A stretch of DNA of 64,000 nucleotides from Clavelina lepadiformis (Eukaryota > Chordata > Ascidiacea > Aplousobranchia > Clavelinidae). The notes beneath the pieces are model-generated. The model did no database searches. It was not told the origin of the DNA and saw nothing but the letters and a program-made list of their open reading frames with translations. Shown piece by piece: positions 16,315 to 57,871 of the stretch. The translations under genes and the position numbers were made by a program. Numbering within the stretch: position 1 is the stretch's first letter; each line of letters starts with the position of its first letter. The DNA lies in the NCBI RefSeq assembly GCF_947623445.1, contig NC_135244.1:310001-374000 (forward strand), read 5' to 3'.

Positions 16315-17757
16315 TTAAGAAATAGAGAGATGAAAACAAGAAAATCCTCTTCGTGCAAAGTTAGAGAAGAAATTGGCGGCTTTCCCCATCCAGCCATGGC
16401 TGTAGATCTTGTAGCTCGTGTAGAGTCCCATCGCGGTGAGGAGGAAGAGAACCCACCTCCACTCTCGCTCCATCCTGTCGAAGGCCGGATGCACTTCCAT
16501 AAGATCTTCGATGTAGACTCCTCCAACGTTGGAGTGTGGGAAGGGCACGCTAGGAACGTCCTTGCCAAGGAAAGCACATAGCGGTCCCCATCCCTCCTTG
16601 ACGCTGTACACCAATAATTTGTCTTTCGGCGCATTCTAAAAATATGGTGTATGACGTCGATAAATCTTGACCAATCAACGTGCAGCCATCATGGTTAGTT
16701 TATCACGTGATTATCGAGTTTAATCTCATCTAAAATACTAGAATTTCTGTGGTGGTAGGCCGTAGTTTACCCAAAGCAAGGATGTTACATGAGGGTGATG
16801 CAGTGCTGGTCTTATAAATTAGACCCAGCAACTTACACAAAAACTCAACTAAAAGCAGAGAATTACACCGGATATTACGAATTTGCTGATCACTGCTGAC
16901 GTAATTTCCTTGTATGAAATAGGTTGTATCCATTTTATAGAGGACTGCATTGAAATTACAATTTTAGAGAGATCAGGAAAACAGTTCAATCAGGTTCACA
17001 GGAAACACAAACACCGCATGTGGAGCTGTGTTCGAATCGATGGATTTGATTATACGTAAACAATAAGCCTTTATGATATCATAGAGCAATAAATAACCAA
17101 CCTGTTCACAGTATTTCTGATGCTGGCGATATTTCAGTTTCGTCAAAACATCGTTGTAATGATAAGTGTAATGGAACGGGTGCTTCATGTCGACGCCCTC
17201 ACATAAGCGCACTGAAGCATAACACTCACGTGATTGTTCGGTCATAACCTAGTTCAGTCACAAAACAAAGCTCACCGAGAGCCCTGTAAAACTTGAAGTA
17301 TTTTCTCCCAGTCGGTGTGAGAATTTGCATGAGTGGGAACTTGTAGTAGCTCTCCAGCACCCTCGCCTGGCCGACAGTGCTCCGGTACCAACTTTCCTCC
17401 TCGCGAGTCGTCAGAACAACCTGAGATAAATTTTATTTTGAAAACAAAAACTTCTGCAAACGTTGAGGTTTGAATTCCAGCAAACAATGTGTTCTGTGAC
17501 GTTACTTTAGCGTCGGGAAAAGCTTTGAGGATTTCTTCCCAGAACGCAAAAGCAGGACAACCAGTCAAAGCATCGACATCTTGATACATCCTCCTGAAGT
17601 CTTCCACAGTTGATTGTCTCTCCATAATCTTCATCCAGTCCTCGTAGTGATACCAGAAGTGATCCATGAAGTCGTAAACCTTATAACCGAGCAGTCGTAG
17701 AGCAGCCGCCATTGACTTGGTGCCAGTCTTGGAGTAGCCCGCCATCACCACCTTCAT
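16315..17757 (-). CDS. Sulfotransferase-like protein with C-terminal membrane anchor, copy 1
   Basis: Four exons (17506-17757, 17276-17420, 17102-17211, 16315-16635) join in phase into 275 residues. The N-terminus KVVMAGYSKTGTKSMAAAL is a P-loop of the PAPS-binding type (the 5'-phosphosulfate loop). KVYDFMDHFWYH and WEEILKAFPDAKVVLTTRE follow, the latter resembling the strand and 3'-phosphate-binding region. The general layout, with YSVKEGWGPLCAFLG near the C-terminus, fits the Sulfotransfer_4 family (PF17784). A single hydrophobic helix (VLFLLTAMGLY) close to the end suggests a tail anchor. The start is the first ATG after an upstream stop region. Substrate unknown. The third exon uses a TTCAG acceptor 64 bases after the donor; the nearer TAG acceptor would put a stop in frame. 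Its last residues (SCFHLSIS) and its third intron differ from copies 2 and 3, so it is the most diverged of the three. Confidence 0.82.
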
Positions 17758-18859
17758 ATTCACTTGTTTGCTGTGAATTGCGAAGCAAATTTTACCAAAA
17801 TGTGAAACCTGGAGAATATAAGAAGTGCATTTGAGACCTCATCAATGAAAGTAAAATCAGGACCTTTTTAGACGAACTGATTCTTTGGTTGGGACTTAAT
17901 ACATTGTGGTAATTTTCATAATTAACCCTTCTTATTCCTACCGAGTTCTCGTGCAGATTTGATAATATTATAATGTTTTTGTGTTTTATTTCGTGTGTTT
18001 ATCAACAAGCGCTGTACTATATTTTGGTCGTGTTTAGTATACGCAACCCAGGTATGATTACTTCCGATTTACGTCATCCGTACTACAGCGCTCAATGCAT
18101 TAGTTGTCAATTGAAGAGATTGGTATTAACCATCCACTGAACGCAACCTTGTTCTGTGCTCTGATAACTGTAACCGTTTCGTTGAGAATCAATAAATCAA
18201 TGTTTAAGACATTGACAGTTTGGTTCTGGTACTGTGATGCTTAACTGGTTATCAGGGGTTAATGAACGCGCTATCAATGGAGTCAGATTAACAAACAATC
18301 GATCAAGCGATAATCAACCACTGTTCACAAACCTCAACAATACGCACAGTTAGCACAAGGTCATAGTGAATGACGTCATGCTTGACACTGACCAATGACC
18401 CTAGAATCTAGGGCCTAGATGATGTTTGCTAAACTAGATCGCTGCAGGATTAAAACGTTTCAAAATTACTTTATTCTAGAACGTCTGTCGCTTTCAAACT
18501 TGGCCAATCAGTTGAAGTCTTTTCTTTTTCAAAATTATCCTCGAACACAAACCAACCAATCCTGGGTATTTCGAACTAAACTGTTTGTGACGTCCAATAT
18601 ATTCTGTTTATCACTCGCTTTCGCGCGATCGTAGGAAATGATGCTTCTGCAAACACAACAAATCGTGAGAGATTGCACAAGCGTCGTTCACGCAACCATT
18701 GTTACGTAGGACACATAAAACACACGCATCAATTATTTCAGCACAAAGTGGTTGGTTCGTTCTGTGGTGTAGACCTGAACGACTTGAAAACATGACGAGT
18801 AAATACCAAGCTTTAGGAAGGTTCTGGCAATGGTTTGAGAATCCGCGGTTGATTAATTA

Positions 18860-20427
18860 TTATTGTCTGAAGTAAGAAAATCCTCGTCGTGCAAAGTTAG
18901 AAAAGAAATTGGCGGCTTTCCCCATCCAGCCATGGCTGTAGATCTTGTAGCTCGTGTAGAGTCCCATCGCGGTGAGGAGGAAGAGAACCCACCTCCACTC
19001 TCGCTCCATCCTGTCGAAGGCCGGATGCACTTCCATAAGATCTTCGATGAAAACTCCTCCAACATTGGAGTGTGGGAAGGGCACGCTAGGAACGTCCTTG
19101 CCAAGGAAAGCACATAGCGGTCCCCATCCCTCCTTGACGCTGTACACCAATAATTTCTCTTCCGGCGCATTCTAAAAATATGATGTATGACGTCAATAAA
19201 TCTCAACCAATCAAAGTCCAACAAATGTGGCTAGCAGAAATTCACTAATTCAAGGCGATAACGCCCTCTCGCGGTCAGATATTCTTATAACAGTATGAAC
19301 TAGGGATGGATGCCGGATATAAGGAAAATCTTATGTTTAATAGAACTGAAAATTTAGCTTATAGTCACAGGCGACGCAAAATGTTTTTTTTTAATTTTTA
19401 AAAATTAGAATAAATTTTGAGGTATTAGCAACATATGTCATATTTGACGGCAAAGTTTATCATGATACAAAATATTCAATCATTACATTGATAAACTGAG
19501 CAGCGGAATTTTTTGCATAAATGGATTACAAAATGTTGCTCCAGATTCTCTCCTACTCATACGTTTCTAGATAGTAGGTAACACGTTTCTTCCCCAATAA
19601 GAACTTTATCCGCTAAGGGGCCTTTAACCGGATAAAATTTCACCCAGACCGAGTGGGCCTACTGCTGACGTCATTTTCTTACAGGCTGCAATCATTCCAT
19701 GAGTTAAAGTGCTGCAGGTTGTGAGATGCCAGCAGTACTGATGAGAGGATAAATATTGATGCATAACTGACCTGTTCACAGTATTTCTGATGCTGGCGAT
19801 ATTTCTGTCTCTGTAAACCTTCGTTGTAATGATAAGTGTAATGGAACGGGTGTTTCATGTCGACGCCATCAACCACACGCGCTGAAGCATAACACTCACG
19901 TGATTGTTCGGTCATAACTTAGTTCAGTCACAAAACAAAGCTCACCGAGAGCCCTGTAAAACTTGAAGTATTTTCTCCCAGTCGGTGTGAGAATTTGCAT
20001 GAGTGGGAACTTGTAGTAGCTCTCCAGCACCCTCGCCTGGCCGAAAGTGCTCTTGTACCAACTTTCCTCCTCGCGAGTCGTCAGAACAACCTGAGATAAA
20101 TTTTGGTTTGAAAACAAAAACTTCTGCAAACGTTGAGGTTTGAATTCCAGCAAACAATGTGCTCTGTGACGTTACTTTGGCGTCGGGAAAAGCTTTGAGG
20201 ATTTCTTCCCAGAACGCAAAAGCAGGACAACCAGTCAAAGCATCGACATCTTGATACATCCTCCTGAAGTCTTCCACAGTTGATTGTTTCTCCATAATCT
20301 TCATCCAGTCCTCGTAGTGATACCAGAAGTGGTCCATGAAGTCATAAACTTTATAACCGAGCAGTCGTAGAGCGGCCGCCATTGACTTGGTGCCAGTCTT
20401 GGAGTAGCCGGCCATCACCACCTTCAT
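18860..20427 (-). CDS. Sulfotransferase-like protein with C-terminal membrane anchor, copy 2
   Basis: Same structure as copy 1: exons 20176-20427, 19946-20090, 19772-19881 and 18860-19171, giving 272 residues. All exon lengths match copy 3 exactly. The P-loop GYSKTGTKSM, the VVLTTREEESWY segment and the C-terminal hydrophobic helix are kept. Replacements against copy 1 include KSTFGQARV for RSTVGQARV in exon 2 and RVVDGVDMKH for RLCEGVDMKH in exon 3. The protein ends SYFRQ. No disruption was seen, so this is a probable working paralog. Substrate unknown. Confidence 0.82.
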
Positions 20428-21522
20428 ATTCACTTGTTTGTTGTGAATTGCGAAGCAAATTTTACCAAAATGTGAAACCTGGAGAATATTAGAAGTGCAT
20501 TTGAGACCTCATCAATGAAAGTAAAACCAGGACCTTTTTAGACGAACTGATTCTTTGGTTGGGACTTAACACATTGTGGTAATTTTCATAATTAGCCCTT
20601 ATTCCTACCGAGTTCTCGTGCAGATTTGATAATATTATAATTTTTTTGTGTTCTATTTCGTGTGTTTTGTCAACAAGCGCTGTACTATATTTTGGTCGTG
20701 TTTAGTATACACGACCCAGTTTTGATTACTTCTGATTTACGTCATCCGTACTACAGCGCTCAATGCGTTAGTTCTCAATTGGAGAGTCTGGTATTAACCA
20801 TCCACTGAACGCAACCTTGTTCTGTGTTCTGATAACTGTAACCGTTTCGTTGAGAATCAATAAAGCATCAATATTAAAGACTTCGACAGTTTGGTTCTGA
20901 TACTGTGATGCTTAACTGGTTATCAGGGTTAATGAATGCGCTATCAATGGAGTCAGATTAACAAACAATCGATCAAGCAATAATCAACAACTGTTCACAA
21001 ACCTCAACAATACGCACAGTTAGCGCAAGGTCATAGTGAATGACGTCATGCTTGACACTGACCAATGACCCTAGGGCCTAGATGATGTTTACTAAACTAG
21101 ATCGCTGCAGGATTAAAACGATTCAAAACAACTTTATTCTAGAACGTCTGTCACTTTCAAACTTGGCCAATCAGATGAAGTCTTTTCTTTTTCAAAATTA
21201 TCCTCGAACACAAACCAACCAATCCTGGGTAATTTGAACTAAACTGTTTGTGACGTCCAATATATTCTGTTTATCATTCGCTTTCGCGCGATCTTAGGAA
21301 ATGATGTTTCTGTAAACACAACAAATCGTGAGAGATTGCACAAGCGTCGTTCACGCAACCGTTGTTACGTAGGACACATAAAACGCACGCATCAATTATT
21401 TCAGCACAAAGTGGTTGGTTCGTTCTGTGATGTAGACCTGAACGACTTGAAAACATGACGAGTAAATACCAAATTTTTGGGAAGGTTCTGGCAATGGTTT
21501 GAGAATCCGCGGTTGATTATTA

Positions 21523-23099
21523 TTATTGTCTGAAGTAAGAAAATCCTCGTCGTGCAAAGTTAGAGAAGAAATTGGCGGCTTTCCCCATCCAGCCATGGCT
21601 GTAGATCTTGTAGCTCGTGTAGAGTCCCATCGCGGTGAGGAGGAAGAGAGCCCACCTCCACTCTCGCTCCATCCTGTCGAAGGCCGGATGCACATCCATA
21701 AGATCTTCGATGAAAACTCCTCCAACATTGGAGTGTGGGAAGGGCACGCTAGGAACGTCCTTGCCAAGGAAAGCACATAGCGGTCCCCATCCCTCCTTGA
21801 CGCTGTACACCAATAATTTCTCTTCCGGCGCATTCTAAAAATATGATGTATGACGTCAATATATCTCAACCAATCAAAATCCAACAAATGTGGCTAGCAG
21901 AAATTCACTAATTCAAGGCGATAACGCCTTTCTCGCGGCCAGATATTCTTATAACAGTATGAACTAGATATGGATGCCGGAAATAAGGAAAATCTTATGT
22001 TTAATAGAACTGAAAATTTAGCTTTTCGCTTTGTTAGTCACACGCGACGCAAAATGTTTTTTTTAATTTTTAAAAATTAGAATAAATTTTGAGGTATTAG
22101 CAACATATGTCATATTTGACGGCAAAGTTTATCATGATACAAAATATTCAATCATTACATTGATAAACTGAGCAGCGGAATTTTTTGGGTAAATGGATTA
22201 CAAAATTTTGCTCCAGATTCTCTCCTACTCATACGTTTCTAGATAGTGGGTGACACGTTTCTTCCCCAATAAGAACTTTATCCGCTAAGGGGCCTTTAAC
22301 CGGATAAAATTTCTCCCAGACCGAGTGGGCCTACTGCTGACGTCCTTTTCTTGCAGGCTGCAATCATTCCATGAGTTAAAGTGCTGCAGGTTGTGAAATG
22401 CCAGCAGTACAGATGAGAGGATAAATATTGATGCACAACCAACCTGTTCACAGTATTTCTGATGCTGGCGATATTTTTGTCTCTGTAAAACTTCGTTGTA
22501 ATGATAAGTGTAATGGAACGGGTGCTTCATGTCGACGCCATCAACCACACGCGCTGAAGCATAACACTCACGTGATCGTTCGGTCATAACTTAGTTCAGT
22601 CACAAAACAAAGCTCACCGAGAGCCCTGTAAAACTTGAAGTATTTTCTGCCAGTCGGTGTGAGAATTTGCATGAGTGGGAACTTGTAGTAGCTCTCCAGC
22701 ACCCTCGCCTGGCCGAAAGTGCTGTGGTACCAGCTTTCCTCCTCGCGAGTCGTCAGAACAACCTGAGATAAATTTTATTTTGAAAACAAAAACTTCTGCA
22801 AACGTTGAGGTTTGAATTCCAGCAAACAATGTGTTCTGTGACGTTACTTTAGCGTCGGGAAAAGCTTTGAGGATTTCTTCCCAGAAAGCAAAAGCAGGAC
22901 AACCAGTCAATGCATCGACATCTTGATACATCCTCCTGAAGTCTTCCACAGTTGATTGTCTCTCCATAATCTTCATCCAGTCCTCGTAGTGATACCAGAA
23001 GTGATCCATGAAGTCGTAAACCTTATAACCGAGCAGTCGTAGAGCGGCCGCCATTGACTTGGTGCCAGTCTTGGAGTAGCCCGCCATCACCACCTTCAT
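21523..23099 (-). CDS. Sulfotransferase-like protein with C-terminal membrane anchor, copy 3
   Basis: Exons 22848-23099, 22618-22762, 22444-22553 and 21523-21834 give 272 residues. It is nearly identical to copy 2 in coding and intron sequence. Small differences include HSTFGQARV in exon 2 and RWALFLLTAMG instead of RWVLFLLTAMG in the anchor. The PAPS-type P-loop is intact. Its upstream flank carries the deletion described for the tandem array, so its promoter may differ from that of copies 1 and 2. Substrate unknown. Confidence 0.82.
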
Positions 23100-23600
23100 A
23101 TTCACTTGTTTGCTGTGAATTGCGAAGAAAATTTTACCAAAATGTGAAACCTGGAGAATATAAGACTTATATTTGAAACCTCATCAATGAAAGTAAAACC
23201 AGGACCTTTTTAGACGAACTGATTCTTTGGTTGGGACTTAATACATTGATAGTCAATGACGTCATGCTTCACACTGTCCAATGACCTTAGATGACGTTTA
23301 CTAAACTAGATCGCTACAGGATTAAATCGTTTCAAAACAACTTTATTCTAGAACGTCTGTCACTTTCAAACTTGGCCAATCAGATGAAGTCTTTTCTTTT
23401 TCAAAATTATCCTCAAACACAAACCAACCAATCCTGGGTATTTCGAACTAAACTGTTTGTGACGTCCAATATATTCTGTTTATCACTCGCTATAGCGCGA
23501 TCGTAGGAAATGATGCTTCTGCAAACACAACAAATCGTGAGTGATTGCACAAGCGTCGTTCACGCAACCATTGTTACGTAATCAAGGACCTGCATAGTTT

Positions 23601-45400: not shown

Positions 45401-48400
45401 GTGCTAAATAAATAGCAATAAAATCCGATAAATTGGATTATTAACAGTTAAGCGAAAATGATTCACGATTGTCCTAATACAGTATGTTAGTTTGTTGACG
45501 AAACAATAGCCGATTATCTACGCATAATAACGTTGCGGTCTTTATTGATTCAAAAGTGCAGTACTGTACAGTATTTTAGAAACGAAAAAATAAATTGTTC
45601 ATCAACAGTAACAAACAACGCTTCCGCGGTCGCAAAAAAATACGTACATTACATCGGTTGAGTGCGGCAATCTATTGAAGACATACTGCTGCGACTCAAT
45701 CGTGCTATCAGCTTTTGATATCGCATTGCGCAAAGATTGGAAACAGGTCAAAGAAAGTTCAAGACAGTTGGTCCCACCGGAATGCTTCGCCACGCAAGAG
45801 CGGTTTTTAAACCGATTTGCGACCGAATGTTCGTCACTTGGAGAGCATTCGTCGGTTCTGGGGTTCGACACTGGGTCGGATCATACAATAAATATAATTT
45901 TATTTTAGTTGCTGTCCAGCCAGAAACTCGGCACTTAGAATTGGAGTAAGGTGCATACTGCGTTTTGAACACGGTGCTGCATTTGCAAGATTGATTGATT
46001 TTTTACTTTCCGATAATCCGGAAACCCCGCTAAACCGACATTTTTTGACGAAACGAAGTGGTCCGGATTAACGAGGTCTCACTGTATTCAAAAGTTTATA
46101 AAAGATGAAATTGAAAACAACGCGCACTGGGAGCGCACACGCAATGCGTAAGCTTTGTGACTTGTAGTGCGCTTTGTTACGAAACAATGAAATCAACAAT
46201 GCTCAATTTAAGCATTAACATGTGGCTGTCAATACGCACACATTAACATTCGCACTGTTTAAGTTTCATTTAAGCGTTGCGATAAGATGATGCCGTAATA
46301 TGTGAAGAAGTTTTACGAAACAAATAAGTTGAAAAAGACAACAATAAAGAAAAATCTGCTGACGCAATCGTTGTGACAACACCAAAAAATAAAGAAGTTC
46401 TGCATGTACTTCATAGTTCATACAACTCGCCGACGATTACAGTTTGAAGGGGCGGACTTGGCCACATTTGTTCGCTTAAAAACACAAATGCAAGAAAGCA
46501 TGTTTTCATCTTTTGCGTGCTTAAATGAATAAATGATCGGTATGCACAATAAACGCTAGTGTTGACGTCTTTACACGTGACCAGCGTCGCACCTCAAGTA
46601 AGAAAATAAGTGGAATTTGCACTTTCGCATAATTCGTTTAATCGCATAAAAAGGCTTGGCCAATTGACTATGCAATTAACCAGATTCGACTGATCTGCTT
46701 TTGTTGGAAGTGTTTTCCCATCTCTGGTGTTACGTCTGTACAGACAAACATATAACCAAAAATAACCTTGGGACTAAAGTGGTCCACGCAACCATTCAAA
46801 AATCGCATGTGGCCCTTTGGCCAAAAAGGTTGGACACCCCTGCTGTAAGTGGTCGCATCATAACTGGGTGGCTTCAAAGTCTCCGAGCAGAAGCAACAGT
46901 CATTGCGATGCAACAATAGAAAATGATGATAGAGAAAAAGATTCCTTCTACGAGCAACTATAGGATAGGAGACAAGAATGCACAAATTGGAAACACAGAT
47001 AAAGAACACAACCCACTGTAGGCCAATATGGTTCTGCTTGACTAACCAAACACAATGGTGACGTCTGTTAATGTGAGCTTTGTAGCCACTGACTTCCGTA
47101 TATCCAACAACGTCTTCATCCACAAAAACACTTAGAGATCATCCGGTGGTAGATCAGCAACAAAGTCCCGTATTTACTTGATTGTAAGCCGCGCTTGATT
47201 GTAAGCCGCATGCGATAGAGTTAAAAATTTAATGTAAGCCGCTCTTGAATGTAAGCCGCATATACCAACTGTTTACACGCAAAGCTGAAACTGTTTAAAG
47301 GTTTATTTTAACTTTCACGCTCATTATTGTAATTGCCATCATCATCGATAGTCACGGAGATTACCGACAATTTAAAATGCACGTCACAACTTCACAATTG
47401 TCGGTATCAGACAACGCAGTACGGCAAAATATCTATTCTATGGCAAAGTCGACAAGGAAAAAGGCAAAAAGAAAAAATGTAAGCCGCCCTTGAATTTAAG
47501 CCGCAAACATGATGAAAAAAAATTTGTAAGCCGCGGCTTACAATCAAGTAAATACGGTATTATATCAGCATCAGCCGACATTCAATCCAGGATGTCAGCA
47601 TCCACAGAGGTGTCAACATCGTATGAGTTCGCACACTTTGAAAAATCCAAGTTAAGAAACCAGCAAATACAAAACTGTTTGAAGTAGAAATTTTGACCCT
47701 ATCAATGCATCATCAAGTTGGAGATGAAAAACAGATTCAAAGTTGAATGCCCGGTGAGCCCTTTGCAGTCCTGCTGAGGTAGACGGCATCCTTCATGGAA
47801 ACTGGAATCAACTCCCTGTATTGCAGGGTTTACGAAACAGCAAGCAGCCGAATCAACACTATAACCGAGATCAAATGTCTACATGGCAGGAACCTAAAAC
47901 ATCGCCAACCAAGCGGATCAAAATTCAACTTTTCCAATGACACAAAAGCTCAGAAACTCAGAAAAAAGCAGAAACAAGAATACTAAGATGATCGCTGGCA
48001 TAGGACAGAACTCTCTGAATAAATGGCCGCCGACTACAAGTGTGACAGAGAATTTGGTTCCAAACAGACCTCTACCAGCTGCAACTAGGTACATACAAAT
48101 CCATATCCGGCTCGTATGCCAGCAAGTTCACCATCAACAGCAGAGCCAGGATTCAGCCTAAGTCGGCAAGAAAATGAAAATCTGAATGTAACTGTCTTCA
48201 CAGTCAAAGCAAGAAACACTTGATTCTATATTTCAAGGGGGACAAGGACTGAAGAAATGGAACTGGCTGCAAGGGAGGATCCTTTGCTCTAGCAACAGAA
48301 CAAATGGAATATCAGGATCAGCAATGAGGGAGGATCGATGATTTTAAACTCTGGAGAAAGCATTCCAACTCAACAACCTGCCTACTAATGAGAAGAAAGG

Positions 48401-49139: not shown

Positions 49140-49265
49140 CTAAAAATCATAAATGGGAAAATATTCATGCTATATTTGTAAATTATTTATATAATATCAT
49201 TACAAAATGTACACATATATAAACACACACCTAGGCGTCGATTAATTAGTAATTGAAAGCACATA

Positions 49266-49294
49266 CACTGCAAAAAATAATGCCTTATTGTTAG
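49266..49294 (+). repeat. Left terminal inverted repeat of the CACTG transposon
   Basis: 29 bases from CACTGCAAAAAA to TATTGTTAG, preceded by TA. Confidence 0.9.
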
Positions 49295-49530
49295 TTCAAA
49301 AGGCTTATTATAATTAGTGCAGTTGTTTGATGAACTCGAATTTTGGCTTATTCTTAGTGCATTTAACAATTAAGTCTCATTGTTAGTATATTTCCAAGTT
49401 TCCTTCCTTGTTGTTAGTAATTCTCTGCCTGATATGTAGGATTGCTAACTAATGACCTATTATTTAGAAACCTACCGTTATTGCGGCCTTATTACTAGAT
49501 ATTTTCAATTTCTTGCCTAACATTTAGTTG
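49281..49530. repeat. Left subterminal repeats of the CACTG transposon
   Basis: CCTTATTGTTAG, GCTTATTATAATTAG, GCTTATTCTTAG, CTCATTGTTAG, CCTTGTTGTTAG, CCTATTATTTAG, CCTTATTACTAG and TAACATTTAG follow one another within 250 bases. The matching cluster, on either strand, lies at about 56230-56420. In CACTA elements such arrays bind the transposition proteins. Confidence 0.75.
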
Positions 49531-49660
49531 CCGGAAAAAGAGAACCAAGGGTTTGGATTGAAACGTCATAATGGCTAAGAAAAAAGATTGTGGTATTATT
49601 TGTCATGTCCGCACTTAATAGCAATAGGAGTGCTAACTGAGCACATGCTAAAATGTCTTT

Positions 49661-49800
49661 GTGACGTCACGAATGGCAGCCTGCTGGTTTTCATGAGCAA
49701 CCTGCTATCCGTGACGTCACATGGTTGCCAGCACCCTGCTATCGGTGACGTCACGTGGTTGCCTATCGGTATACCACCCTGCTGTTCGTGACGTCGGCAG
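49661..49800. repeat. Four-fold GTGACGTCAC repeat inside the transposon
   Basis: GTGACGTCAC or a close form occurs at 49661, 49711, 49745 and 49788, each beside CCTGCT, GGTTGCC or GGCAGCC words. A related block in opposite order lies at about 53914-53980, near the start of the second gene. They could be promoter elements, since the word is a CREB/ATF-type palindrome, or part of the transposon's own binding sites. Confidence 0.6.
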
Positions 49801-50390
49801 CCTTTATTTTTTATATTGTTGATTTTTCGCCGTTGGCTGTTGGGAACTTGGGAGCGAAAAATGTATATAGGCTAGGCCTAGGCTGAAATGAGGATGTTGT
49901 TAGAAGCTGCCTATACAGTTATGCTGTTGCTGAGGCTGCAAGATTCGGAAAATCCGGTATGTAGTGGAAAATCTGTGATGCAGAGACACATTTAGTTGTG
50001 ATGTTGTACATTGACACCTCAAGTCAATTGAAGCAGTCGTGCAAAAAACCATAACTACTGGTATGTCTGTATGACTGTATGTGATATGTTTGTTTAGATC
50101 AAGGGTGTCAAATTGAAATGTAGGATCGCATTTCAAATTTCAGGTAAGATGTGGGCTGCACCAACATTTCAAAGACGAGCTTTGCCAAGTCATTTCAAAT
50201 AAATTGACCTTATTAGTTTGCATATTGTCAAGCATGGCTAGGTGATTGTCGTCTATGCTAACATCGGTATTGTCATAGTGACATATTCTTTTACGCCTGT
50301 TACCGAATATTTTTGCTTTCAATTGCTGTACATTAAATTTTTTGTTACATAGGTTTTCTGCTTTGTGAAATGCTTTAATATTTAAGAGAA

Positions 50391-53238
50391 ATGGTGAAAT
50401 ATAAATTGTCGGAAAGCTGTATTGAAACCTCCATGGACAATGTGTTACAGTTTATATCGCACATTCAATCCTGTCCACTTTGTCCTCCGACCTTTCTGAT
50501 AAAGCAAAGCTTGCAGAAACACTTTCTTTCCACTCATTTTCATCGTGCAGTAGACATGAATGTTTCATGAAAAGCAGGTATATAATTCTTTATGTATATA
50601 ACTTCACCATAATGCAGAAATATTCCAAACTTTGTGATTGCCTAATTATGTTATTTGTGGTGTGATTGAGATTTAATGATGTACAATATGTGTTTGTATA
50701 TTTCAGGAAGCAAATATTTAGGCATTTTGTACCCAAAATATCCCCGGAATTGGTAGCTTTTTTACAGTTACAATTTGCTTTCCCTACTTTAACAACCTGG
50801 CTCTGTCACTGTTCCCAAGTATGTTAGCATTCACACATTGCGATGAAAATTCAAAATACTACTAATTTCATATCCTTGGAAAAAATCATGTTACCTTGTC
50901 AAACATACCGGTATGTATTGGCTGAGAGGTTTTCTGATTAAATAGTAATTTTGTGTAACTAAGTGTAACATCCTGAGGAGCAAAAAAAACTACAAGTTAT
51001 CGAAGAATTGAGTTAATAAGCTCCCAAGCCACAACCATATTAGTAGCTATTTTTCATACTAATGAAAGCACTTCCATTTTTTGAACATCATACTCATAGT
51101 CATTGTTCAATCCAATGTGTTAAGTTGTAGACTGCAATTGTTGTGTATTATATAAGAATTTTCAATATACATGTTTCTCCATTGCTGTTAACAGTTTTCT
51201 TTTTTTTAGTTAGTCTTCCTTGCAAAGTGCAAATTCCACTTATTTTCTTACTTGACGTGCGGCGCTGGTCACGTGTAAAGACGTCAACACGCAAAGCACT
51301 CAGTTCGGCGCCCGTGAAGCCTTGGTTTTAAAGGTAATCTTTATTGGGTTTGGAATAAACTTACATTGCTTGTAGGGTAAACATAGTGCTCAACTTTTTT
51401 GGCTTTTACAGGCAAAGAGGAAGATTGTTGTACTGTCACCCGTCTATTCTACAATGTGGTTTTGGAATGGGCGGTTCCGGCAATCTACCTCAAGCAAACT
51501 GGTAAGCTGAACTTATGAAGTTTTTGGATCAGAGGGAATGCTTAAGCGTCTGTAATTTTGAAGCCTAACATATGCCTGCAATTTATCGAATATATAAAAA
51601 AAGAACCTTTTTTTAAGGAACTTATTATAATAAAATAATAATAAACAACAAACTTCTAAACTTTGGCACATAAACAGTAACAAAAATAATAAATTTATTA
51701 CATTAATATCCACTTAAAGTTAGCAAGTGATGTGCAGGTGGTAATAAATTTTTTCAGACATTTCCTGAACTTTAGGCAACAACAGTTATGATAGCCATGA
51801 ACGTTGTTAATAGTTGTTGTAAACTGCACATTAAAAGTTTAACTATCATGATCTAATTTTTGTAGGCCAATGCTATGATTGATCAGTCATTTATCACTGT
51901 GGTAAATGTCCATGAAAACCACTGGTTGTTGATGGTCAGTAAAATTTGATAAATATTGAAATGAGGAAACTTACTGGCTGACTGCTAACCAATTACAATT
52001 TTACTTTTCAGGTTAAAAGCAATGACACTAAAACTATTTACGTTTATGACTCGTTTGGAAAAGAACCAATGGAATATATTCCTCGAATAAAAAAACACTT
52101 TGGGTATCACTGTAGTTTTCATGTTAGCGCCTGTTTCATAAATATAAATTTATGCAAAAAGTAATTCTATTTGTTAAACAATAGATCATTTTTTCGACAC
52201 TATTGAAAAACAACATCTGAGTGGAGATACTGCTGCAGAAAGCATAACGAACAAAAGGACTTTATGAATTGTGGCCCTCTTGCATTAATGGTAAAGTTTT
52301 AAAACACTGTTTTAGTTTTCTATAATCCACTTTGGATCCAGAATATTTTTAAACCATTAAATTGTTGTAGGAAGCAGAACGTTATTTGTGCCAAAATTTG
52401 TTTGAAGACGCAGATTTCAATGCGGATTCAACATCGTGTACTTTGTACAGAGAGAATTTTGGCAACTTATTGCTCAATATGACAGGTAAGCATTATTTCA
52501 AGTTCAAACAGCTAGGGTTTAATGGTGCTATTGCAGTGCTTTTCTCCTATTTTACATAGAATTAGAAATCATTGTACATAGTGTCGACCATTTTGACAAA
52601 ATGCTAACGCAATAATGGAACATTCTTGTAATGTAGATAATTAGATACACCTGTGCTGAATTACAACAATAATATGGAAAGCATGGTTGTTGCTTAATGT
52701 GACATGTTTCAATTACATTATTAGATGAAAGTTGTTTGGAAAATTACTGTCTCATGTGTCATGTTGCAAAACCACCAAAATCATTTTATGGAGACACAAT
52801 AAATTGGGTATGATTCCTATGAAGTATGACAGAAATGTGCCATTGGCGCATTTGTTTTTGAACAAGTTGTGTAATGTGATAGTGATAAGAATCCATTAAG
52901 CTAATGAAAGTGTGAAATTCAAATAATTACTTAATCATATCATGTAAATTATAAGAGCGATCAATTTTGCTATGAACATTAATTAGTGCAAAGGTTACAG
53001 TGCTTGCATTTCCAGGTTTTTGAGGATAAATACATTGAGAGATGTGATGGCAAAAAAGTAATCCTATGTACTGTTTTCTAAGGTGTCCTATGAAGAATGT
53101 AGAAGGTGGTGCCATGAGATTTGTCTGAAAGGTTGCTGTTTAAAGAAACATTTACATGTCAGCATCACTAACAGAAAAGTTGATTCATATGCACATTTCA
53201 TTGATTGTATTCTTTTTCTTTTTCGAAATAACTTTTAA
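50391..53238 (+). CDS. Transposon-borne Ulp1-type (C48) cysteine protease with zinc fingers
   Basis: The first exon opens at ATG 50391 with a C2H2 finger (CPLCPPTFLIKQSLQKHFL then STH). An exon at 50707-50818 follows, then 51412-51501, 51866-51934 with HENHWLLM (catalytic His before Trp), and 52012-52103 with YVYDSFGKEP (catalytic Asp). The next segment ends at 52290 with QKDFMNCGPLALM (oxyanion Gln and catalytic Cys). Exons 52371-52485, 52725-52807 and 53083-53238 follow; the last two give CLMCHVAKPP and WVSYEECRRWCHEICLKGC, a PHD-like zinc-binding end. The H-D-Q-C order is that of SUMO-type Ulp1 peptidases, which are common passengers of eukaryotic DNA transposons. Joins between the C2H2 part and 50707, and between 52103 and the Cys exon, could not be made in one frame, so splicing is unresolved or the copy is damaged. 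Substrate unknown. Confidence 0.68.
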
Positions 53239-53913
53239 TAAACATCATCCACAGAAACCTAAGATAAGCAGTTTATAAACGAGGCAAACAGGAAATAAAG
53301 TTGAAATATTTTACATGCATCAGAGAAAAAACTGCATAAATACCATTTGTGCTTGTAAAGTGCTCGTACTGAACAGAAAAATCCATTAAAATGAAATTGC
53401 ATAGTTGACAAATAGTTGTTCTAAACAAACTTGGTACATTTCAATACAACACAGTGCGACAAAAGGTTTTCGCAGCAAAAATGAAATGTTCCTTAGTTGA
53501 TGCTAAACCTTTAAGAACTTTATTCAAAATCATTCCAAGAAAAGATACGCACCCAAGAGGTTCATGAAAGGGAACCCCGATTTACTATAAATAAAGAAGA
53601 AAGCTGGTGAAAGTTATAATAAATAAACAAAGAATTAAGGCTTCAGTGAACGCACGATTTGTTGTCAACAACTGTCATAGCCTACTTTCAAGTTGGCCTA
53701 CCGTCCGTACCTGCACATGTCCTACGGTCCAAGGGGCAAAAATAAACAATACTACAAAATAAAGATACTATCAGCAAATCAATATGTGCTACAATATCAG
53801 TAGGCTATACTTTGTTAATGTAAATTACACTTTGGGTACTTAAATGAATATAATAAATTCTTTTGTGCACTTTTTTTCAAATAACAGTAGCAGAATACTA
53901 CTACTCCAGCAAT

Positions 53914-53980
53914 TGGAGGGCTGCTGTTGGTTACGTCACGGTGAGCAGCCTTGGTGTTACGTCACGAACAGCAGCCTGGC
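53914..53980. repeat. Second TACGTCACG/GCAGCC block of the transposon
   Basis: GTTACGTCACG occurs twice within 50 bases next to GCTGCTGTT and GCAGCCTTGG words, mirroring the block at 49661-49800. Confidence 0.5.
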
Positions 53981-54086
53981 AATCATTGAGCAGAAACCAA
54001 GAGCAGGTTGCAGCACCTGCTCTTTCGGTTACTACCCCGCCTCCTTAATAGTGTCTTTTTATCTTCGCCACAGTACAAGTCGGGTG

Positions 54087-56160
54087 ATGGGTTATCTTGC
54101 GGAAGAAGCGGCCAAGTGTGGCTTATCTGAAAATATTGTGGATGCGTTGAAAGGTATGCTGCAATTGAAACCCTCCTGTATGCTATTATGAACAAAATGA
54201 GAAAGTATAGATATGAAACATAGGCTGTTCTTGAATGAAATGTTACGTACTGTATATCAAAACCACTTTGATTTAGCTTTTGTTGGTTGTTTCGATTTAT
54301 AATAATTGTATAATTTATAGCCTAGTAATTGCGTAAAATAACTCCTATTGCATTGATGCCCTTTAACGCCAGCTTTATGAAATGTCATTTTCGCGCTAAA
54401 ACGCTGGTTTCCTTAGATTGTTGCTTGACAATGTCTTGGCAGCAGATCAACATGTGGCACTACCAGTAAGGCATCTTTGGCTATTTCTAAGGATTTTTAA
54501 GCATAGCATACTGCCAACTGTGCAAACGCCACATTTTAGTTTTAAAACGAGTTACTATGTATTATAACAGTTCTACGATGTAAACTTTCACGCGGTTAGG
54601 TTACGATACTTGTAGGAAGAAAGCATCTGGACTTATTTCCAATGCGCGTTACATCAATGCCGATGCCCAACTCCAATGCAATGACGTGCATTTTTATTTT
54701 ATACCTTTTTTCCGCGTTTGGTATAAAATGTTACATTTTACAAGTTATCTAACCTTTGCTTAGTTTCGAAAGGAAACAGACCTATACTTTCACCTCCCGT
54801 GGTGTTAATTTTAGAACATAATGTAGTGTCTTACGTGCTTTGGAATAGGCTTGCGGCTTATTATTTACGTTTCTTTGCCATAACCCAACACCAAAAATTC
54901 CTATAGAAATATATAATTACAATTACAAATTTTTGGTAATAGTGTCTTTTTTATTAAATAAAACTTTGAAACTTTTCCGAATTTCGCCAATTTTCAATTT
55001 TTAGCAAACTATTTCTAATTTGATAGGGTTATTTCGATGTATTTAACCTATGTTGTTAGTTTCCTGTATGTCAGGTGTTTTAACAAATGGCGACTATTGT
55101 TTAGAGAGTGGATTACAAGTTGCTGACTTGCCACTCACACATGCTATCGTCAAAGAAGAGTTTGTCACATTATCTTTTGGAGAAAGAACACGATTAATGA
55201 ATTTCCTTGCTGAAGTGTTATTTCGTGAGGTGCGTATAATATTTTTAATTATTGTATTACGATGCAGTGACATAGTTTTTTGTATTAAAACAGCTGGTTA
55301 ATAACGGTTAAATGTTAAATGCTGTTTAAATAACGGTGGAGAGAAGCCGTGGGTAGCTCTTGATTTAGCCGTCCGCAAAAGAGCGGACAATCAAAAAGCG
55401 ATGATGAATCGGGTACTGCAAGTACAACTTGGCAAGAGCAGAAAGAGAAAGAGAGCTGCCAATGATTGGGAATCCAATCGTGAACATCGACTGATGGAAA
55501 TTCGTCATCTGGCGAAGAGAAATGACGTTGATGTTATCTTTCAAAAATACTCGCAATATTGCGTTCATCCGATTGAGGTAAATTGGCATAAGATGTGTTA
55601 CACGTGGCAGTAAGGTGTTGAAGAATTTTTTATCTTACTCATTGATTGCTTTATTTTACTCTGCAGTGTATCAAGGAATACGCTGCTTTAGTTAGTCAGG
55701 GCTACGAAGAGTTCCGTTCCAACTGTTCCTTTCGATGGTCCAGCTTTCTATCATCTTTTGGCGTCTCGTTTGTAGAAGGCTCAGAAAAGGGGAGCTATGT
55801 CGTTTTTCAAAGGCTGGCAGAGAAAGTCTGTTCTGCAAGCTCAAAGTATGTCATTGTGTTTGACAGTAATGGATGTTTATTAGACATAAAAGATAAATCT
55901 CGTCAACAACCATTTATAATGTGTATGGGTGTTCCAGAATTTCCTGGTAACTGTTGTTTAATGATCAATATAATCAATCGTACATTCCAATCGGTAAAGT
56001 TTCATGCTTTGAATGTATTTTGATGTTGCTTTCTGTGTACTTTGTATTTGATTATGAGTATCCAACACAAGCTTCATCTTTGTATCGTTTGCTTGAGTTT
56101 CACGTTTTTGGCTTTGGAAAACGGCCAACTCAGAAAGTGTATCAAAATCTTTTTGATTGA
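54087..56160 (+). CDS. Second gene of the CACTG transposon, unrecognised product
   Basis: Exon-like pieces lie at 54087-54153 (MGYLAEEAAKCGLSENIVD), 55075-55229 (LPLTHAIVKEEFVTLSFGER and RLMNFLAEVLF), about 55338-55577 (EKPWVALDLAVRKRADNQ and a basic GKSRKRKRAANDWES), 55667 to about 55992 (YEEFRSNCSFRWSSFLSSFG, KYVIVFDSNGCLLDIKDKS) and a last piece ending at 56160 (HVFGFGKRPTQKVYQNLF). Clear GT/AG pairs in matching phase join the first two, and the third to the fourth. The basic stretch could bind DNA or be a nuclear signal. No DDE triad or other known transposase motif was seen. It may be the accessory protein of the element or a diverged transposase; exon limits at the 3' end are uncertain. 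Confidence 0.5.
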
Positions 56161-56498
56161 TGTTTGTTTAAAAGTTGTTTCTGGCCATTGCATATTCTCA
56201 TTTTGAAAACGTGCTGCAAAATAAAACTGGCTTATTATTAAAAAGTGTATTTACCTAAGCGCTAAGAAAAGAAAATTATGGATTGCTATTAGGGTATTTT
56301 TGGCTTAAGGATAGCATTAGCAGAACTACGGGTCAGCCAGTTTTTAAACTAACTGTTAGGCAAACGAAAGGCGCTTACTATTAGCAATCTTTTAACGGCT
56401 TATAACTAGCCTCGATTGTGGATAACATGCAGCCGAAAAACGAGGACAAAATAGCCACTTTTTTTCAACCTAACAATAAGGCATTTTTTTTTGCAGTG

Positions 56499-57069
56499 TA
56501 GAGAAGGGTCAGATAGAAAATTGGGGATTTCCCAATTGTGAGAGCAAAAGATCCACACAACTTGTCCCCAGAAAAACACCAAAGTAAATTGTTAAGTTAT
56601 AGAAAGACTCTGCTCTATTGGAAATGGTAAATGCACAAGCTTGTCCACTCGGACAAAAAAGCTGGCACTTCTACCAGTGAGCAGAGACACAGAGAGAAGC
56701 TGATGAGCTTTCTACGGTAGTCATGGCGATAGCCACTCAATAGATATCTTATAAGCAGTCGTATCACTATCTTCTTGATTATGCGTAATGCTGAGAAAGT
56801 GTACAGCACTTACAATAAAAGCCTTTTCTTGTAAACTATATCTGTTGTAATATTTATAGCTTTCGGCTGACAAGAGGTTAGACTCTAACCGTTAGAGTAT
56901 TCTAAACGCACGCAACAATAGATAATTAATTCAACAGGTAAATTAAGTTAACATAACATATGTTAAGACAGATAAGTTCTGCATCTACATTGACAAGCTC
57001 TGCAAAACTAAATACTGCTTTTGTGGGAAACTAGTTAAATGGAATTTGGTTTTTAAAATACACAATAAG
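56499..57069. other. Spacer right of the CACTG transposon
   Basis: No gene was recognised. The missing 5' exons of the NLR gene could lie from here rightwards, but no death-fold domain was found on the minus strand. Confidence 0.4.
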
Positions 57070-57871
57070 GGTACCTGTACCGAATAAGGCCCGGTCCCTA
57101 ATAAGGCCCATTGCTCATATTTCGCAAACCCGTGCAAATAAATAAAAGATTTTGTCCCTACATAAAAACTAATATAAATTCATGATGGTTTACCAGATTT
57201 CATCCTTGTCACGTGATCAACCGATTCGCTAGAGCACAACAAAAATTTGATATTTGCAGTTAAGGTGGTTTTGTTTAATTTAGAAAAAAGTAAGTGAGAA
57301 TTTGGCCGGTTAAATGAACTGTTGTCAGCCGGCTGAAGTTTTCATGTAACAACCAACTTAGTATTGAAAAGGATAATGCACTTTTTTTTGCTAAAATTTT
57401 TCTGATGATAAAAATGTGACGTTCTTTTTCGTTGATGCCACATGCGCCTAATAAGGCTCATACAAGATGCTTGGCTAACTGATGTCCAGACTTCAAGAGT
57501 GGTTCCAGTCATCAGTTGGCAAATTGTTGCAGTTACTTTGATGCGCCTAGTGGAATCTTTTTAAATGTTTGTACAACTTAAAATGTGAAATTTCTAATAA
57601 TGTTATATGTTGTCTATTACTATGTTTTGAATCAAAATACTCACAAAATTGGTGGGCCTTATTAGGAGCCTATGCCCCTAATAAGGCTCATTTTTTGGAA
57701 TTTTTAATTTCTTTATAAAAATGTTTTGGGGGGTTGTCAGGTATTGTGGTTTTAATATGTTGTAGTCATATACCCTCACTAATAGAATACGATTTTTCAG
57801 TCTATTCTCATTTATGGTTCTTGAGTTATTTTCAAAAAAGTGTTAGGTGGGCCTTATTCGGTACAGGTACC
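57070..57871. mobile_element. MITE with GGTACCTGTACC ends and TAAG duplication
   Basis: GGTACCTGTACCGAATAAGG at the left is repeated inverted at the right. TAAG flanks both sides (57066-57069 and 57872-57875), a 4-base duplication. The word CCTAATAAGGCYCAT recurs inside in both orientations. The 802 bases hold no recognised gene. A 4-base duplication would suit Sola or Chapaev-like families, but no transposase is present to decide. Confidence 0.7.

Follow-up and report, generated by a model that had tools for sequence, protein, structure and literature searches.

A probable internally deleted CACTA-type transposon with a nested Ulp1 element in the tunicate Clavelina lepadiformis

The subject of this analysis is a mobile element at positions 49266-56498 of a 64-kb stretch of Clavelina lepadiformis chromosome 5 (hereafter the window; all positions follow its numbering unless they carry the prefix C1 to C8, which denotes the chromosome). 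On the basis of a comparison with related copies in the genome (209.06 Mb in 95 contigs were searched), we consider it very likely (probability about 0.91) that a non-autonomous animal cut-and-paste transposon of the EnSpm/CACTA type (CMCT clade) occupies this interval as an internally deleted copy, in which an unrelated Ulp1-carrying transposon is nested. The evidence comes from the ends of the element and their recurrence in sister copies, from the boundaries of the nested transposon, and from a transposase gene that is present in fuller copies and missing from the window.

Ends of the element and its sister copies

The interval is delimited by CACTG inverted repeats of 36 nt flanked by TA. 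With the flanking TA included on both sides, the arms at 49264-49301 and 56463-56500 form a 38-nt pair that is 89% complementary, and matching ends were found in sister copies elsewhere in the genome. Terminal repeats with a TA on each side had already been proposed in an earlier sequence-only reading of this DNA, and both the ends and the existence of further copies sharing them could be confirmed. Within the 64 kb, the exact 14-mer TACACTGCAAAAAA occurred solely at the two element ends. Its count was unremarkable, as three matches with up to two mismatches were observed against 1.57 expected and 17 of 100 shuffles reached three; the ends were judged real because of the 36-nt pair and the sister copies, not because of the 14-mer count. 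The subterminal arrays described in the same reading were also recovered. All five window matches to GSCTTATTNTTAG, a motif derived from the element itself, lay inside the element ends when at most one mismatch was allowed (49282, 49345, 49486, 56229 and 56470), but at up to three mismatches no excess could be observed over the whole window (110 versus 98 expected; 13 of 100 shuffles reached 110), and TGTTAG alone was not enriched in it (30 versus 34 expected). The features of the ends are as follows:

49264-49265, no strand: target-site duplication TA, left (read directly)
49266-49301, + strand: left terminal inverted repeat, CACTGCAAAAAATAATGCC... (end shared with sister copies)
49282-49527, + strand: left subterminal repeat array, GSCTTATTNTTAG-like
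56229-56482, - strand: right subterminal repeat array
56463-56498, - strand: right terminal inverted repeat
56499-56500, no strand: target-site duplication TA, right (flank comparison across copies)

We compared 17 genome regions with the window, counting L047+L048 and L055+L056 once each and leaving L057 to L061, which are fragments or diverged, out of the copy counts. This gave 11 long copies including the window, whose aligned pieces longer than 50 nt were 91-99% identical. Both ends could be read in ten copies, eight of which have matching 2-bp flanks (four TA, two CA and two TG); the eleventh long copy, L050, is without its 3' end. The fuller copies, of about 6.85 kb, combine CACTG inverted repeats, subterminal arrays and 2-bp duplications with two divergent genes. 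Two copies contain further insertions: L053 has one of about 1 kb at window position ~54565, where the flanking pieces overlap by 8 nt, and L054 has one of about 2.4 kb at ~49598 and another of about 1.6 kb at ~54826, the pieces flanking the latter overlapping by 6 nt.

The nested Ulp1 transposon

The C2H2/Ulp1 block is an independent nested transposon, unrelated to the host element, because it is absent from this site in the ten other long copies, is bordered by an exact 8-bp duplication, and belongs to a family of its own with 8-bp duplications. Its features are listed below:

49614-49621, no strand: 8-bp target duplication CTTAATAG, left (site uninterrupted in nine of ten other long copies)
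49622-54043, + strand: nested second transposon of 4.4 kb, starting CAATAGGAGTGCTAACTGAGC and ending CGGTTACTACCCCGCCTC, which carries the C2H2/Ulp1 gene
50391-50570, + strand: C2H2-like frame within the nested gene (Pfam zf-C2H2_4 at E=0.005, which is below the cut-off)
51869-52484, + strand: Ulp1 (Peptidase_C48) exons of the nested gene (boundaries approximate, putative splicing by eye)
54044-54051, no strand: 8-bp target duplication CTTAATAG, right (exact repeat of the left one)

The block occupies this site in the window copy alone. Other copies run straight from window position ~49619 to 54052, and their uninterrupted sites read CTTGATTG, CTTGATTC, CTTGATTT or CTTGTCTC; in the tenth copy (L054) the site is disrupted by 2.4 kb of other sequence. 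The nested element recurs elsewhere in the genome, both as long copies that measure about 4.3-6.3 kb and as numerous shorter relatives. In the searches for this family, the best 40 of 97 and the best 40 of 143 candidates were scored, and long forms were sought by visually pairing matches to the 5' and 3' ends. Of the nine copies with both ends examined (window included), eight are flanked by perfect 8-bp duplications, each with a different sequence. Thus, the interval that had been read as a single 7.2-kb element is composite, and the Ulp1 gene is not a passenger of the CACTG-ended transposon. The Ulp1 domain itself was recognised correctly: with the exons joined by eye, Peptidase_C48 matched above the Pfam cut-off (E=4e-6, 27.3 bits; cut-off 20.7), and a shorter joined piece scored 19 bits, below it.

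No inverted repeat between the two nested-element ends was seen by eye, and one 6.3-kb copy, in which frames of 70 aa or more were listed, showed no transposase. Target duplications of 8 bp are a property shared with KDZ/Zisupton elements; according to excerpts of one study, they are made by Zisupton and are also usual for hAT (PMC12730594). The genome contained 31 KDZ matches, none of them within 50 kb of the nested-element copies listed (from the best 40 of 97 and best 40 of 143 scored), where non-autonomous copies would be without KDZ anyway. It should be noted that 21 of the 31 KDZ matches were short fragments (profile positions 166-211; a 77-aa open frame in 20 of them) with near-equal scores, scattered over the chromosomes as if carried by a high-copy element. 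In addition, a 71-bp inverted pair with 96% identity links 46559-46629 with 51221-51290 inside the nested element; the segment ~51224-51300 matches at least 17 further scattered loci at 96-97% and looks like a short dispersed repeat.

Transposase gene and probable internal deletion

Three of the 11 long copies (L045, L046 and L047+L048) contain an extra 3.57 kb at window position ~49530, and the remaining eight, including the window, share one common junction:

49528-49531, no strand: approximate junction of the 3.57-kb internal deletion, C2H2 and transposase gene removed (junction shared by 8 of the 11 long copies)

The 3.57-kb region holds, in opposite orientation to the second gene, a C2H2-like exon (Pfam zf-C2H2 below the cut-off) and a 733-aa frame, which is open in two of the three copies (C5:16039583-16041781 and C2:15697438-15699636). 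In L047+L048, whose middle part was not fetched and holds further insertions, the frame has a stop and is split by an apparent hAT element; the transposase halves are separated by a 631-aa frame at L048 531-2423 (in the copy at C2:21.20M) that contains DUF4371 and hAT dimerisation domains. A tblastn search with the transposase against the window identified no remnant of it. No exact duplication or inverted repeat was seen by eye at the edges of the 3.57-kb region.

To characterize the 733-aa protein, we used relatives from a whole-genome search that yielded at least 68 matches (61 of 118 first-look candidates were scored). One relative, at C5:3.14M, shares 53% identity in its aligned part, is frameshifted and has its own C2H2-like exon, and another, at C1:6.449M (L089), is 32% identical. 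In an alignment of these three sequences, in which catalytic-type residues were placed by eye, D208/D209, D303, C324-x2-C327, H393, H535-x3-H539 and E559 were kept in all three. The step of 20 residues from the last H to the E is the same in RAG1. The CMCT clade is described as having three catalytic acids together with two C and three H (excerpts of PMC12730594). L089 matched Pfam DUF4218 just above the cut-off (E=2.9e-6, 27.5 bits; cut-off 27), and Plavaka (E=7.1e-5, below the cut-off) and PIGA (E=0.07) followed; DUF4218 is reported as a part of CACTA transposase reading frames in plants (PMC8978399, in the portion consulted). Neither the focal transposase nor L089 had a Pfam match to Transposase_21. 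Taken as sequence evidence, this pattern fits an EnSpm/CACTA-type (CMCT) transposase in the sister copies. A transposase-less EnSpm derivative had been one of the two identities offered for the interval, and it was borne out: full copies with a separate transposase were looked for, and same-ended sister copies carry one that is absent from the window and from seven others at a shared junction.

Two further observations concern the transposase relatives in general. At least 46 of the at least 68 matches lie within 2.6 Mb at C4:0.83-3.40 Mb, 41 of those 46 with internal stops, resembling a graveyard of related transposases. On the other hand, relatives at C1:6449500, C6:4068958 and C7:17496674 have identical scores and an 821-aa open frame, which suggests recent movement of another family.

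The second gene

In sister copies the second gene would encode about 480 aa in four putative exons, with splice sites placed by eye, and is divergent from the transposase gene. The window version is a truncated, internally deleted remnant:

54087-54153, + strand: second gene, putative exon 1 (splice sites by eye)
55075-55229, + strand: second gene, putative exon 2 (splice sites by eye)
55316-55334, no strand: ~470-bp deletion of most of second-gene exon 3, in the window copy only, with short filler
55335-55577, + strand: second gene, exon 3 remnant
55667-56160, + strand: exon 4 of the second gene, with a broken frame in the window copy

The divergent pair of transposase and second gene was also present in a diverged relative at C5:3.141-3.150M. 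Relatives of the second gene showed 29-44% identity in their longer pieces, and the one at C5:3.147-3.150M was 36% identical overall. A further divergent pair, known by coordinates only, lies at C8:13.664-13.672M and may belong to the same diverged family as C5:3.14M. Between families, exon 3 had a non-synonymous divergence (dN) of 0.54 and a synonymous divergence (dS) of 2.44 over 157 codons (NG86). The second protein had been described as a member of no known family, which is consistent with the absence of any Pfam match for it; the two second-gene exon frames of the diverged relative gave one chance-level match to Pfam (PfNDH2_hel_ins, E=1.9) and none, respectively. An alignment search against PDB returned a likeness to papain in four entries at E 0.9-0.96, which we took as chance.

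Alternative explanations and proposed mechanism

Several observations weigh against the interpretation of the window element as a deleted CACTA-type copy with a nested transposon, or against parts of it. Two of the ten copies with both ends readable are without matching 2-bp flanks (L051, CA/TA; L053, GT/TG), and one of the nine nested-family copies (L074) has no 8-bp duplication. Moreover, CTTAATAG differs at no fewer than two bases from the uninterrupted sister sites, a mismatch that is taken here, without proof, as earlier divergence of the window copy. The focal 733-aa transposase had no Pfam match at E<=1, and no PDB match either alone at E<=1 or as a two-row profile at E<=10, and its assignment to the family therefore depends on a relative and on residues that were placed by eye. 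At its two edges the 3.57-kb region has similar sequences (CATTTAGTTG and CATTTCAGTTATTG), where BLAST pieces overlap by 7 to 10 nt; this likeness fits a microhomology deletion, but judged from the edges alone it may also be a degenerate target duplication left by an insertion. As to the second gene, none of the transposase matches listed lies within 50 kb of six diverged loci (four on C1 and two at C8:0.17-0.18M) or of two weak ones on C3, and dS between families was saturated for exon 4 and for both transposase stretches (NG86). Constraint within the family was also weak: over exons 2-3 of ten copies (window excluded) the rate ratio was 0.51, with 45 non-synonymous changes of 1998 possible and 25 synonymous changes of 567 possible. 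Because this ratio is close to 0.5, many second-gene copies are probably drifting.

The competing explanations differ widely in how well they agree with these data. It is extremely improbable that the interval is one 7.2-kb transposon with a Ulp1 passenger. Viewed by itself, the window favors this idea, since the Ulp1 gene sits between the CACTG ends, but it is contradicted by the ten long copies that lack the block at this site, by the exact duplication at its edges and by its independent family. Scarcely more credible is the other identity offered by the sequence-only reading, a second gene encoding an undescribed transposase. Its retention in transposase-less copies and in the diverged family, together with the lack of a Pfam match, would suit such a role, but a separate gene with the CMCT residue pattern adjoins it in the fuller copies; a comparison of its sequence had also been called for, and in the invariant columns of a two-row alignment no acidic triad with C(2)C...H(3)H could be seen, so that this proposal is not supported. 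It is quite unlikely, too, that the 3.57-kb transposase block was acquired later by a short element and is not ancestral. Such an acquisition would explain why the block occurs in just three long copies with the same, imperfectly similar edges, but those edges are without exact duplication or inverted repeat, and in the diverged family at C5:3.14M the transposase and the second gene are likewise arranged divergently, in the same order.

The role of the second protein is more evenly balanced. We lean slightly towards an accessory transposition factor whose role, though not its sequence, would compare with that of the second protein in plant CACTA elements; for specific CACTA families, support of both excision and transposition by the ORF2 protein is described (excerpts of PMC4158355). 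That it instead serves as a passenger or as a regulator, acting for instance against host silencing, and takes no direct part in transposition is a serious contender at a little under even odds. It has no known domain and weak within-family constraint, and other transposons carry such genes, for example TET/JBP in fungal transposons (excerpts of PMC12730594); it is, however, retained next to the transposase in two families, between which the transposases share 53% identity in the aligned part, and the ORF2 precedent also counts against a mere passenger. A bolder proposal, which we hold tentatively and would expect to fail somewhat more often than to hold, is that the ~480-aa protein is the first member of a family of accessory transposition proteins, so far undescribed, in animal CACTA-type elements; it would have no sequence relationship to its plant counterpart, be conserved in divergent arrangement with a C2H2-DDE transposase, bind the GCCTTATTNTTAG-like subterminal arrays and help to excise and pair the ends.

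For the deleted CACTA-type copy that we favor, the following history appears likely. A single 3.57-kb deletion that removed the transposase gene would have founded a subfamily of which the window copy is a member; the direction of this change, loss from a fuller form, is suggested by the second, diverged family. The window copy has also lost about 470 bp of its second gene and received the 4.4-kb Ulp1 transposon, in either order. Most likely the transposase, with its C2H2 part, would recognise the ends and subterminal arrays and cut the element out, and deleted copies, the window one included, would be moved in trans by the transposase of fuller copies. The second protein would act as an accessory factor (slightly favored), as a passenger or regulator (somewhat below even odds), or otherwise. 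These results illustrate that a reading at the level of one window can fuse two mobile elements into a single, seemingly strange one, which copies elsewhere resolve. The biological gain is modest: a tunicate yields an animal CACTA-type family with two genes, and the retention of a second protein next to the transposase in two families makes accessory factors in animal CACTA transposition a testable question.

Other repeats in the window

A cluster of CCTAATAAGGC-like repeats at 57060-57700, just right of the element, is perhaps another small repeat. Farther away, 16338-23580 contains a tandem duplication whose repeat unit measures about 2.67 kb (17093-20576 versus 19763-23248, 95.5% identity, plus partial copies).

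Comparison with known transposons

A literature search for related animal CACTA families found no description of the Clavelina family in titles and abstract openings. The Clavelina elements are a new family of an otherwise ordinary CACTA type, where 'new' makes no claim of being unpublished. They share several properties with EnSpm/CACTA elements of the CMC/CMCT clade (including Plavaka): CACTG ends, subterminal arrays, short target duplications, a transposase in which D, D, C(2)C, H(3)H and E recur, a second protein, and derivatives with internal deletions. Both CACTA/G inverted termini and the D, D, C(2)C, H, H(3-4)H, E pattern were found, the pattern in sister copies and not in the window copy, and the 2-bp duplications of eight of the ten copies lie within the 2-5 bp given for CMCT (PMC12730594, in part). 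In contrast to canonical plant EnSpm/CACTA elements, for which a 3-bp target duplication is described (excerpts of PMC4158355), the Clavelina family has 2-bp duplications and no Transposase_21 match was found. A C2H2-like exon in the transposase gene and its divergent transcription from the second gene also set the family apart from EnSpm/CACTA elements of the CMC/CMCT clade.

Among animal elements, the CACTA relative SmTRC1 likewise has 2-bp direct repeats, reported in 7 of 14 copies (PMC1636069, in the portion consulted). By the description given there, the Clavelina motif D-x-M-H-x3-E-G resembles the D-x-L/M-H-x3-L-G of TRC transposases, whereas the last-but-one motif residue differs and TRC ends begin with CCC instead of CACTG. 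ESTA, a fungal EnSpm-like element, can be set against the Clavelina family by its description in excerpts of PMC12730594: it shares the CMCT residue pattern and has the TA duplications that occur in some of the Clavelina copies, whereas the Clavelina copies also have CA and TG duplications and reside in an animal host.

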